The position numbers were made by a program, and so were the translations under genes. Shown piece by piece: positions 6,120-41,240 of a stretch of DNA of 64,000 bases; position 1 is the stretch's first letter, and each line of letters starts with the position of its first letter. A model generated the notes under the pieces. The model saw nothing but the letters and a program-made list of their open reading frames with translations, searched no databases and was not told the DNA's origin. The stretch comes from Streptomyces wedmorensis. GTDB lineage: Bacteria; Actinomycetota; Actinomycetes; Streptomycetales; Streptomycetaceae. The stretch covers positions 13,990-77,989 of the forward strand of contig NZ_JNWK01000037.1 of the NCBI RefSeq assembly GCF_000716445.1, read 5' to 3'.

Positions 6120-6135
6120 CTAGAACGCGTTCTAG
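6120..6135 (-). promoter_or_regulatory. KstR-like operator upstream of the hydratase operon
   Basis: CTAGAACGCGTTCTAG is a perfect 16-bp palindrome and contains TAGAACGCGTTCTA, a 14/14 match to the KstR pattern TNNAACNNGTTNNA known from Mycobacterium and Rhodococcus. Confidence 0.75.
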
Positions 6136-6197
6136 GTCGGTGGACCCCATGTATAGCCCAGCCGGAAGGAGTTGGGAACCCTCCCGGCGCAAGGCTC

Positions 6198-6212
6198 CTG
6201 ACGATACGTCAG
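6198..6212. promoter_or_regulatory. Palindrome of the CTGACG-N3-CGTCAG type
   Basis: CTGACGATACGTCAG has perfect 6-bp arms around 3 bases. It lies between the divergent MaoC operon and the ABC exporter. The same palindrome class recurs near 13.5, 21.2, 30.7 and 41.3 kb. Confidence 0.55.
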
Positions 6213-6308
6213 AAAGGGTGGCGGTCCCGGACCCGGGACATTTGTCACGGCCGGGTCCGTACATCCACGCCTGCCGGGCCACCGCCCCCGGTTCGTAGCG
6301 TCGTACCC

Positions 6309-7241
6309 ATGACGACAGACAGCCCGCAAGACCCGGCGGTCGCCTTCACGGCCGCGACCAAGACGTACGGAGCCGTCCGCGCCGTCGACGGCCTCGACCT
6401 CACCGTCCGGCAGGGCGAGACCGTGGCCCTGCTCGGCCGGAACGGCGCCGGCAAGTCCACCGCCATCGGCCTCCTCCTCGGCCTCGACGAGCCCGACAGC
6501 GGCCGCGTCGCCGTCTTCGGCGCGGCCCCGGACCGCGCGGTGGCCGCCGGACGCGTCGGCGCGATGCTCCAGGAGGCCCGGCCCGTCTCCCGGGTCACCG
6601 TCCGCGAACTCGTCGGCTTCGTCGCCCGGACCTACCCGTCGCCCATGCCCGTCGACGAGGCCCTGGCGCTCGCCGGACTGACCGGCCTCGCCGGCCGGCG
6701 CGTCGACCGGCTCTCCGGCGGCCAGACCCAGCGGGTCCGCTTCGCCGTCGCCCTCGCCGGGAACCCGGAACTGATCGTCCTGGACGAGCCGACGGCCGCC
6801 CTCGACGTCGAGGCCCGGCAGGAGTTCTGGGACTCCATGCGCGGCTACGCGCGCCGCGGCAACACCGTCCTGTTCTCCACCCACTATCTGGAGGAGGCCG
6901 ACGCCTACGCCGACCGGATCGTCGTCCTCGACTCCGGCCGCGTCCTCGCCGACGGCACCGGCGAGGAGCTCAAGCGGGCCGCCGGCGGCTCCCTCGTCTC
7001 CTTCGACCTGGCCGGCGGCCCCACCGACTGGCTCGGCCTGCTGCCCGGCGTCACGTCCTTCGAGGTCCGCGGCGACCGCGCACGGCTGCGGACCGGGGAC
7101 TCCGACGCCACCGTCCGCGCCCTGGCACGACGGGACGCCGTCCGCGCCCTGGAGGTCGCCCCGGTCTCCCTGAACGACGCCTTCCTCGCCCTCACCCGTC
7201 CGCCGCACGCCACCGCCAGGACCCTGGAGACCGCGCGATGA
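6309..7241 (+). CDS. ABC exporter ATP-binding protein
   Basis: A 310-aa single ATPase subunit of the CcmA/DrrA type. Walker A GRNGAGKST lies at 43-51, the signature LSGGQ at 135-139 and Walker B LIVLDE at 155-160, followed by a switch region STHYLEEAD. It would power export by the permease encoded next, whose start overlaps its stop (ATGA). The downstream sensor/regulator pair suggests control by that system, as in many antibiotic- or lipid-responsive exporter loci; the exported compound is unknown. Confidence 0.92.
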   Translation: MTTDSPQDPAVAFTAATKTYGAVRAVDGLDLTVRQGETVALLGRNGAGKSTAIGLLLGLDEPDSGRVAVFGAAPDRAVAAGRVGAMLQEARPVSRVTVRELVGFVARTYPSPMPVDEALALAGLTGLAGRRVDRLSGGQTQRVRFAVALAGNPELIVLDEPTAALDVEARQEFWDSMRGYARRGNTVLFSTHYLEEADAYADRIVVLDSGRVLADGTGEELKRAAGGSLVSFDLAGGPTDWLGLLPGVTSFEVRGDRARLRTGDSDATVRALARRDAVRALEVAPVSLNDAFLALTRPPHATARTLETAR

Positions 7242-7957
7242 TCACCGCCTACGTACGCCTCGAAGTGCGCCGCACCCTGCGCGACCCCGGATTCGCGATC
7301 TCGACCGTCGGCGTCCCCGTGATGATGTACCTCCTCTTCACCAACCTCGGCGCCGACGACAGCGCGTACCGGACGGCGGCCATGGTCGGCATGGCGGCCT
7401 ACGGCGCGCTCGGCGCCGCCCTCTCCGTCGGCACCGGCGTCGCCGAGGACAAGTCCACCGGCTGGCTGCGACAGCTGCGGATCACCCCCATGACGCCCCG
7501 CCAGGTCGTGACGGGCCGCGCCCTGACCGGAACGGTCGTCGTCCTCCCCGCCATCGCGGGCGTCCTCCTCGCGGGCGGCCTCGCCAACGGCGTACGGATG
7601 GACGCCTGGCAGTGGCCCGCGGTCGCCCTCACCCTCTGGCTGGGCTCCCTCCCCTTCACCCTGCTCGGCATCGGCAACGGCTACCGGCTCACCGCCCAGA
7701 CCACCGGCGTCGTCAACGTCGCCTGCAACCTCGGGCTCGCGGTCGTCGGCGGCCTGTGGTTCCCCGTCGCCCTCTTCCCCGACTGGCTCCGCGCTCTCTC
7801 CGAGGCCACCCCCACCCACCGCTTCGCCGAACTGGGCGTGGCGGTGACCGACGGGACGGCCCCCGCCGCGACGGCCCTGGCGGTCATCGCCGGGTGGGCG
7901 GCGCTGTTCGGTGCGTACGCGGCCGTCTCGTACCGGCGTTCGGCGAGGGCGGTGTAG
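7238..7957 (+). CDS. ABC-2 type permease
   Basis: A 239-aa integral membrane protein with about six hydrophobic segments, starting with the cytosolic stretch ITAYVRLEVRRTLRDPGF that is usual for ABC-2 permeases. The sequence EDKSTGWLRQLRITPM is the typical short loop after the second membrane segment. It overlaps the ATPase gene by 4 bases and is followed 10 bases later by the histidine kinase, so the four genes form one operon. Confidence 0.92.
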   Translation: MITAYVRLEVRRTLRDPGFAISTVGVPVMMYLLFTNLGADDSAYRTAAMVGMAAYGALGAALSVGTGVAEDKSTGWLRQLRITPMTPRQVVTGRALTGTVVVLPAIAGVLLAGGLANGVRMDAWQWPAVALTLWLGSLPFTLLGIGNGYRLTAQTTGVVNVACNLGLAVVGGLWFPVALFPDWLRALSEATPTHRFAELGVAVTDGTAPAATALAVIAGWAALFGAYAAVSYRRSARAV

Positions 7958-7967
7958 GAAAGTGGCC

Positions 7968-39858: not shown

Positions 39859-39891
39859 CGCTCGCCGGGCGGACGCCCGGCGGCGGACGGG

Positions 39892-41061
39892 TCAGAGCCG
39901 CTGGATGATCGTCCCGGTGGCGAGCGCCCCGCCCGCGCACATCGTGATGAGCGCGAACTCCTTGTCGGAGCGCTCCAGTTCGTGCAGGGCGGTGGCGATG
40001 AGCCGGGCGCCGGTGGCGCCGACGGGGTGGCCGAGTGCGATGGCGCCGCCGTTGACGTTGACCTTCTCCAGGTCCTGGTCGAAGACCTGCGCCCAGCTCA
40101 ACACCACGGACGCGAAGGCCTCGTTGATCTCGACGAGGTCGATGTCCTTGAGGCTCATCCCGGCCTTGCCGAGGACGGCACGGGTCGCGTCGACCGGCCC
40201 GTCGAGGTGGTAGTGCGGGTCGGCTCCGACGAGGGCCTGGGCGACGATCCGGGCGCGGGGGCGGAGTTTGAGGGCGCGGGCCATCCGCTTGGAGGCCCAC
40301 ATGATCGCGGAGGCGCCGTCGGAGATCTGCGAGGAGTTGCCCGCGGTGTGGATCGCGGCGGGCATGACCGGCTTGAGTCGGCCGAGGCCCTCCATGGTGG
40401 TGTCGCGGAGGCCCTCGTCCCGGTCGACGAGCCGCCACATGCCCTGTCCGGCGGCCTGTTCCGCCTCGGTGGTGGGGACCTGGACGGCGAAGGTCTCGCG
40501 CTTGAAGCGCTCCTCGGACCAGGCGGTCGCGGCGCGTTCCTGGGAGAGCAGGCCGAGCGAGTCGACGCGTTCGCGGGTGAGGCCGCGGCGGCGGGCGATG
40601 CGTTCGGCGGCCTCGAACTGGTTGGGCAGGTCGACGTTCCACTCGTCGGGGAACGGTTTGCCGGGGCCGTGCTTGGAGCCGGAGCCGAGCGGGACGCGGG
40701 ACATGGCCTCGACGCCGCAGCTGATCCCGATGTCGATGACGCCGGCCGCGACCATGTTGGCGACCATGTGGCTCGCCTGCTGGGAGGAGCCGCACTGGCA
40801 GTCGACGGTGGTGGCGGCCGTCTCGTAGGGCAGGCCCATGGTGAGCCAGGCGGTGCGCGCCGGGTTCATGGACTGCTCGCCGGCGTGGGTGACCGTACCG
40901 CCGACGATCTGCTCGACGCAGTCGGCGTGGATGCCGGTGCGGCCGAGGAGTTCGCGGTAGGTCTCTCCCAGGAGGTAGGCGGGGTGCAGGTTGGCGAGCG
41001 CGCCTCCGCGCTTGCCGATGGGGGTGCGTACGGCTTCGACGATGACGGGTTCCGCGGCCAT
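39892..41061 (-). CDS. fadA5: Steroid-type 3-ketoacyl-CoA thiolase, FadA5-like
   Basis: A 389-aa thiolase. The nucleophile is Cys90 in [10 protein letters not shown], His345 lies in [14 protein letters not shown] and the second cysteine is Cys375 in CAGGALATG. The DCQCGSSQQ block and the [17 protein letters not shown] region are those of FadA5 (Rv3546), which removes side-chain acetyl- or propionyl-CoA units in cholesterol breakdown. It is divergent from cyp125, the same pairing as in M. tuberculosis. GAGGAGAGGA precedes the ATG; a KstR-like box lies about 70 bases upstream. Confidence 0.88.
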
Positions 41062-41128
41062 GAGCTCGTCCTCTCCTCGACCGGACGGGGTGTCCCGGCA
41101 CCCCGGTCGGTCGGCGTCACGGGGGAAC

Positions 41129-41142
41129 TAGTACGCGTTCTA
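41129..41142 (-). promoter_or_regulatory. KstR-like operator, fadA5 side
   Basis: TAGTACGCGTTCTA, one mismatch (TAC for AAC), inside the 20-bp palindrome-like AACTAG...CTAGTT. Confidence 0.6.
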
Positions 41143-41226
41143 GTTCTGAGTGCAGTCTTATGACTGCTACCGCCGGTACGCAAGGGTCCGGGACGCAACA
41201 GTTCCCGCCCCGACCCTTGCTACTTG

Positions 41227-41240
41227 TAGAACTCGTTACT
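41227..41240 (+). promoter_or_regulatory. KstR-like operator, cyp125 side
   Basis: TAGAACTCGTTACT, one mismatch at the last position, 51-64 bases before the chosen cyp125 ATG. Confidence 0.55.

Follow-up and report, generated by a model that had tools for sequence, protein, structure and literature searches.

Genes of the kstR locus

A 64-kb stretch of the Streptomyces wedmorensis genome (contig C37, positions 13990-77989), here called the window, was analysed for a KstR-type repressor gene and the genes under its predicted operators. The window has a G+C content of 73%, and its genome (G000) has 9.38 Mb. The repressor gene, six predicted operators, genes for sterol side-chain breakdown and a gene set resembling a methylmannose-polysaccharide (MMP) operon were recognized (Table 1). 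All six operators sit in spacers of divergent genes, i.e., in five divergent promoters, and one of them (26217-26230), TnnAACnnGTTnnA, lies upstream of the repressor's own gene.

Table 1. Predicted regulator, operators and enzyme genes of the window
Feature	Position	Strand or location	Evidence
kstR-type TetR repressor (208 aa)	26399-27025	+	NF033703 199 bits; PDB KstR 5aqc 144 bits
KstR-type operator (predicted)	6121-6134	between MaoC-ADH-SDR operon and ABC operon	exact 14-mer; 24.9 bits
KstR-type operator (predicted)	13518-13531	12 bp upstream of fused ACAD start	exact 14-mer; 30.6 bits, own site in training set
KstR-type operator (predicted)	26217-26230	common to kstR and manT operon	exact 14-mer; 26.5 bits
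KstR-type operator (predicted)	30703-30716	between ALDH-ferredoxin and MBL genes	one mismatch; 21.3 bits
KstR-type operator (predicted)	41129-41142	fadA5 side of fadA5/cyp125 spacer	one mismatch; 28.7 bits, own site in training set
Second, weaker operator (predicted)	41227-41240	cyp125 side of fadA5/cyp125 spacer	one mismatch; 17.1 bits
ManT homologue (GT4 mannosyltransferase)	24843-26162	-	PDB 7QSG 448 bits, next best 89
SAM methyltransferase, position of MMP methyltransferases	23978-24712	-	Methyltransf_11, 85 bits; MeT1 vs pMeT3 not resolved
MmpH homologue (MMP hydrolase)	22893-23981	-	PDB 7QSJ 373 bits, next best 20
MaoC / MFE-2-type enoyl-CoA hydratase	5149-6021	-	PF01575, PF22622
Zinc alcohol dehydrogenase (ADH)	4050-5126	-	PF08240, PF00107
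Short-chain dehydrogenase (SDR)	3094-4035	-	PF00106; NF005862 488 bits, cut-off 414
Acyl-CoA dehydrogenase (ACAD), two fused halves, FadE34-like, 728 aa	11320-13506	-	two ACAD stretches
SCP-x-type thiolase, separate gene	10109-11302	-	PF22691, PF00108; NF006102 lipid-transfer protein 618 bits, cut-off 436
Ferredoxin	28951-29184	-	cysteine motif in translation only; no NCBIfam match
Aldehyde dehydrogenase (ALDH)	29184-30644	-	PF00171 497 bits
MBL-fold hydrolase, Strvi_7410 family	30764-31801	+	NF053820 679 bits, cut-off 525
FadA5, steroid 3-ketoacyl-CoA thiolase	39892-41061	-	NF005889 694 bits, cut-off 515; PDB 4ubv 520 bits
CYP125-type sterol monooxygenase	41261-42556	+	PDB CYP125 2x5l 512 bits vs CYP124 329

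Apart from the window regulator, the genome has no KstR homologue scoring above 50 bits. Of the 61 genomes sampled from the genus, some of which are incomplete (G001 79%, G050 82%), 57 have a kstR-type gene. The regulator is 42-45% identical to KstR proteins of family f3 that exceed the NCBIfam cut-off, and it fell with over-cut-off KstR proteins in a 22-row group (support 97/95) of a 34-row tree. In G133, an f3 genome, kstR and an ACAD gene (45% identity to the fused ACAD) are divergently arranged around a 32.8-bit site; this resembles the mycobacterial kstR/fadE34 arrangement in the available part of PMC1995591. Besides its over-cut-off KstR, the G133 genome has a second KstR homologue (198 bits; L179, L261), with no 10-bit site by it.

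As far as the passages of Kendall 2007 (PMC1995591) go, the mycobacterial KstR regulon shares with the present one the operator TnnAACnnGTTnnA, autoregulation, divergent promoters and fadE34-, fadA5- and cyp125-type targets. It differs in that kstR here is divergent from manT and not from fadE34, the ring genes carry no sites and the genes are dispersed. SCO2319 was given there as no more than a possible KstR orthologue, 32% identical and without synteny. SCO2321-family genes were found at the window's kstR locus.

The preliminary description had named a KstR-like gene, MaoC/ADH/SDR genes, fadA5 and cyp125, and all of these were borne out by family or PDB matches; for the P450, solved CYP125 was closer than any other solved P450 family. 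The ALDH/ferredoxin pair was likewise upheld; for the ferredoxin, the cysteine motif is the sole evidence. The "fused ACAD/SCP-x thiolase" is two genes, a two-half ACAD and a separate thiolase. An ORF at 10206-11360, tried as the thiolase, was in the wrong frame and matched nothing. The "glycosyltransferase" is indeed a GT4 enzyme; it is no bystander and, as a ManT homologue, starts the MMP-type operon.

The mycobacterial MMP cluster is composed of ManT, MmpH, MeT1 and pMeT3 (PMC9883506). As in that cluster, ManT and MmpH homologues here flank a methyltransferase, whereas only three of the four genes were found, and they are divergent from a kstR-type gene. In the same paper, so far as its passages were available, MmpH homologues were noted in Streptomyces and acetylated MMP in S. 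griseus, the title of a cited reference concerns complex formation of MMP with acyl-CoA, and the function of methylmannose polysaccharides was so far only proposed. The word "regulator" has no occurrence there, and no MMP regulator was reported in these passages.

Operator sites and their conservation

The main operator matrix covered 18 bp and was trained on 27 distinct orthologous sites, with the caveat that the window's own fused-ACAD and FadA5 sites were among them. The background was 400 kb of the same genome in 20 hand-picked stretches. Six sites, three exact and three with one mismatch, had been proposed at the outset together with a KstR matrix scan as a check, and exactly these six reached at least 8 bits in the window (17.1-30.6 bits). 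The background gave 22 matches of at least 8 bits, 10 of at least 10, one of at least 12 and none of at least 15. The 14-mer with up to one mismatch did not hold as a sufficient rule, since it gave 13 window matches instead of six (expected 2.0, sd 1.3), and the seven extra matches all scored below 8 bits by the 18-bp matrix. Genome-wide, the exact 14-mer was found at 28 places against 4 for the reversed control. The 28 places mix several operator types, and loose counting was dropped for this reason.

In a training-free check, seven places in 9.38 Mb were within one mismatch of TAGAACNNGTTCTA, three of them in the window. At two mismatches no excess was seen genome-wide (86 vs 209 for the reversed pattern).

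Conservation across relatives is stronger evidence for the sites than the matrix background. In the kstR/manT spacer, TAGAACAAGTTNCA was present in 28 of 29 relatives, and at the fadA5/cyp125 promoter a site with 10 of 12 consensus bases was kept in 27 of 29. G023 is the exception at the former and one of two at the latter, and the matrix still detected weaker forms there (22.5 and 26.0 bits). The fused-ACAD operator, in the spacer between the divergent fused ACAD-SCPx genes and an NmrA-like gene, was kept in all 21 relatives having the gene. The ALDH/MBL promoter had a site of at least 18 bits in five of six relatives, with 13.6 bits in the sixth (G019). The operator at 6121-6134 was also found at the orthologous promoter in G015, G040, G019 and G049, and the one at 41227-41240 had a counterpart at the same place in G015 (17.1 bits) and weakly in G019 (13.6 bits).

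Genes for an ABC transporter, a histidine kinase and a response regulator lie at 6309-9736, divergent from the MaoC operon across a common site-bearing spacer. A second operator-like family, TTGAACNNGTTCAA, often paired, was seen at L011:9967 and 10011, on C14, C15, C33, C53 and C85 of the same genome, and near a TetR gene on C58.

The constant neighbourhood and members beyond the window

The order of kstR and the divergent manT-methyltransferase-mmpH genes was kept in 16 of 16 Streptomyces regions, i.e., six with the FadA5 set, nine without FadA5, and G031. In ten sample genomes kstR occurs without FadA5; nine of these were examined and G028 was left out. All nine retain a 21-29-bit operator between kstR and manT, and the 16-20 kb seen showed no homologue of ALDH, ferredoxin, MBL, fadA5 or cyp125. 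A MaoC homologue lies near kstR in two of them (G047 and G043), in G047 with a 15.8-bit site. The same gene order was found in Nocardioides carbamazepini at 46-55% identity with a 21.3-bit spacer site, and in this genome a fused-ACAD homologue, cut by the locus end, has a 31.8-bit site near its start. The Nocardioides loci L283, L285, L321 and L332 have a 30-bit site that adjoins, or lies between, genes of about 320-500 aa.

A contig scan for exact CTAGAACAAGTTNCAG gave at least 120 loci. Among the matches listed, 85 were from Streptomyces. Every one of these has kstR no further than 500 bp away, and for 83 the same is true of manT; in the other two the site is near a locus end. The listed Kitasatospora and Actinacidiphila matches were the same as Streptomyces. 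The remaining 33 listed were that of N. carbamazepini and 32 without a visible kstR or MMP gene. Judged by these comparisons, kstR, its operator and manT-methyltransferase-mmpH form the constant core; of all partners of kstR, the MMP operon is kept most constantly.

The ligand domain of the regulator was less alike to the window's in the nine genomes without FadA5 than in 26 genomes with it (median identity 78.7 vs 88.8%). The DNA-binding domain was slightly less alike (87.3 vs 89.1%), and ManT gave no clear difference (81.2 vs 82.6%). The ligand-domain drift fits a lost sterol ligand, although the nine genomes are few and related.

Two of the seven places near TAGAACNNGTTCTA precede ACAD genes on contigs C88 and C4. 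The C88 ACAD has orthologues in 44 of 61 genomes, i.e., in 44 of the 47 with FadA5 and in none of the 14 without, and a site of at least 12 bits lies upstream in 28 of 29 relatives examined. G005 has two C88-type copies on its 7.24-Mb contig C1, both with a site: one (213242-214354) lies 213 kb from a contig end, the other (7225059-7226234) 12 kb from the opposite end. An exact pattern match precedes the C4 ACAD in 11 of the 14 relatives searched, and this gene adjoins what we take to be paa-like genes. In a Pseudonocardiaceae metagenome-assembled genome (L299), homologues of the C88 and C4 ACADs (36 and 53% identical) are neighbours preceded by a single 31-bit site, and they adjoin a fused-ACAD homologue (54%). 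Because these homologues are clustered, the dispersed Streptomyces regulon may be a broken-up cluster.

Four further pattern matches led to a cholesterol oxidase (PDB 1COY 750 bits), whose own copy is on C72. Its orthologues of at least 76% identity have a site of at least 15 bits upstream in 20 of 20 loci (L222-L241, own C72 included). A second site was found in 13 of these loci, at a spacing of 101-102 bp in 12 of the 13 pairs. A paralogue of 55-57% identity had no site at 11 bits in 10 loci. Two more near-consensus places were not assigned to the regulon: one falls within a TldD-like gene on C19, and the other is next to a VanZ-like gene on C86.

Steroid ring genes were found on contig C16. 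HsaA (627 bits, cut-off 450) and HsaD (482, cut-off 400) exceeded their cut-offs, as did KshA_C (293 over 23.3), and HsaC-like (379, below 450) and KstD-like (690, below 789) genes were present. Other C16 translations we take to be ipdAB, echA20, fadE30 and fadA6. No KstR-type site of at least 9 bits was found in C16:50001-110000 (L105-L107), the ring-gene region. In this steroid ring island a TetR gene lies between SDR and thiolase genes, an arrangement also found in KstR2 clusters. This TetR exceeds no NCBIfam cut-off (best 64 bits). KstR2-type control of C16 is not claimed, with one one-mismatch spacer place (C16:59751) against seven one-mismatch places per 400 kb of background. In the available passages of PMC7593942, the KstR regulon predicted for Nocardioides simplex is alike in two respects: a cholesterol oxidase gene has a predicted KstR site, and a cluster of ring genes lacks both KstR and KstR2 sites. 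An MMP operon, unlike here, is unmentioned in these passages.

KshA_C above 290 bits and the HsaC-type model above 300 bits were found in the same three of 61 genomes (G000, G012, G023). Weaker KshA_C matches, at most 97 bits, occurred in 14 more genomes, and weaker HsaC-type matches in G014 (290 bits) and in G022, G013 and G009 (259-261 bits). From these gene contents, the studied strain may be able to degrade whole sterols, and most relatives are probably unable to open steroid rings. FadA5 was found in 47 genomes, in 46 at 89% identity or more and in G031 in two pieces at 74-76%.

A sterol side-chain regulon enclosing its regulator, as first described, agrees with the conserved operators and with FadA5, CYP125 and cholesterol oxidase, but that description was incomplete. 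Inside the window it left out the MMP-type operon as a partner of kstR, and beyond the window the regulon reaches the two ACAD genes and cholesterol oxidase on other contigs. Sites of this type were found at the side-chain genes, and the steroid ring genes lie apart on C16 without them.

A probable coupling of the MMP operon to sterol breakdown

The KstR-type sterol side-chain regulon is well supported, because the operators are conserved genus-wide and FadA5, CYP125 and cholesterol oxidase were assigned. Building on sites, conservation, gene families and linkage, all read from sequence, we consider it probable, at roughly 70%, that the KstR-type repressor couples the MMP operon to the genes of sterol oxidation and side-chain breakdown. 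Binding, repression, ligand, MMP production and a buffering role are what we infer, as follows. The repressor would bind the six 14-bp palindromes in the five divergent window promoters and at least three elsewhere. It would hold down its own gene and the MMP operon, and would also control cholesterol oxidase, CYP125 with ferredoxin and ALDH, three ACADs, MaoC hydratase, SDR, ADH, FadA5 and SCP-x thiolase. By analogy with mycobacterial KstR, it would be released by a CoA thioester from the oxidising enzymes. On derepression, levels of cholesterol oxidase, CYP125/ferredoxin/ALDH and the beta-oxidation enzymes would go up, and so would MMP synthesis. MMP, a proposed acyl-CoA-binding polymer, could then buffer or carry bulky acyl-CoA.

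Several points weigh against this coupling. The regulator is below the NF033703 equivalog cut-off (199 vs 280 bits), which none of the 61 genus genomes reaches; below the cut-off yet grouped with KstR, it was therefore named KstR-type. A matrix from kstR promoters only (9 distinct sites) lifted just three of the six window sites above its background best of 17.4 bits, and the others (14.6, 13.0 and 10.3 bits) fell inside the background; this matrix was rejected as too narrow. A promoter scan of the kstR/manT spacer gave no match. One of the four mycobacterial MMP genes was not identified: a single methyltransferase lies between manT and mmpH, and the rest of the genome was not searched for a second. 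In six regions of five non-Streptomyces genomes (G133 with two, G284, G352, G099, G084), kstR has no MMP genes nearby. The terms "mannos" and "MSMEG_648" are absent from the searched text of PMC1995591, and a single operator common to kstR and manT cannot show which gene it serves.

The last two points favour an ordinary KstR-type sterol regulon, with a kstR/manT operator that only autoregulates kstR and an MMP operon that is passively adjacent. The searched passages of that mycobacterial paper name no MMP gene, and where two divergent genes have one operator in common, its conservation may be due to kstR alone. Such passivity seems rather unlikely, as the nine genomes without FadA5 still have both neighbourhood and operator and the arrangement persists in Nocardioides at 46-55% identity, whereas other neighbour genes in the locus are reshuffled. 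It is also improbable, to a similar degree, that the regulon is real and its natural substrate is a branched isoprenoid or methyl-branched acyl chain. The absence of ring genes from most of the genus (strong matches in 3 of 61) suits such a substrate, and MaoC, SDR and SCP-x enzymes are established families that also suit branched-chain oxidation; against it stand the FadA5 and CYP125 assignments, the sites at cholesterol oxidase and the hydroxylation of cholesterol by a Streptomyces CYP125, reported in passages of PMC9728343. It is very improbable that another TetR protein uses the sites or that they arose by chance, since neither the unspecific loose 14-mer with its 13 window matches nor the TTGAACNNGTTCAA family elsewhere in the genome outweighs the empty background at 15 bits, the kept orthologous positions and the single KstR homologue above 50 bits.

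Going beyond the coupling of MMP to sterol breakdown, we offer a wider idea tentatively. The main role of the KstR-type repressor, both in Streptomyces and in some Nocardioides, might be acyl-CoA-responsive control of MMP as a bulky acyl-CoA carrier or buffer. The sterol set would be added or lost; where lost, the repressor and MMP operon would stay and the ligand domain drift.

A conserved operator tying MMP genes to a repressor of the sterol-CoA-sensing type would give a direct test of the MMP role in harmless Streptomyces. The literature search found no paper joining methylmannose polysaccharide and KstR. Steroid catabolism was reported lacking in 55 of 57 Streptomyces genomes in the part of PMC4810484 available, whereas the genus mostly keeps the predicted sterol side-chain regulon. 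With FadA5 so widespread in the sample, many Streptomyces may therefore trim sterols without ring opening. The finding also bears on the published view, seen in passages of PMC3388012, which traces KstR back to the ancestor shared by mycobacteria and Rhodococcus.

Apart from these genes, a tRNA-Val (tac) gene was found at 63871-63945 of the window on the minus strand.

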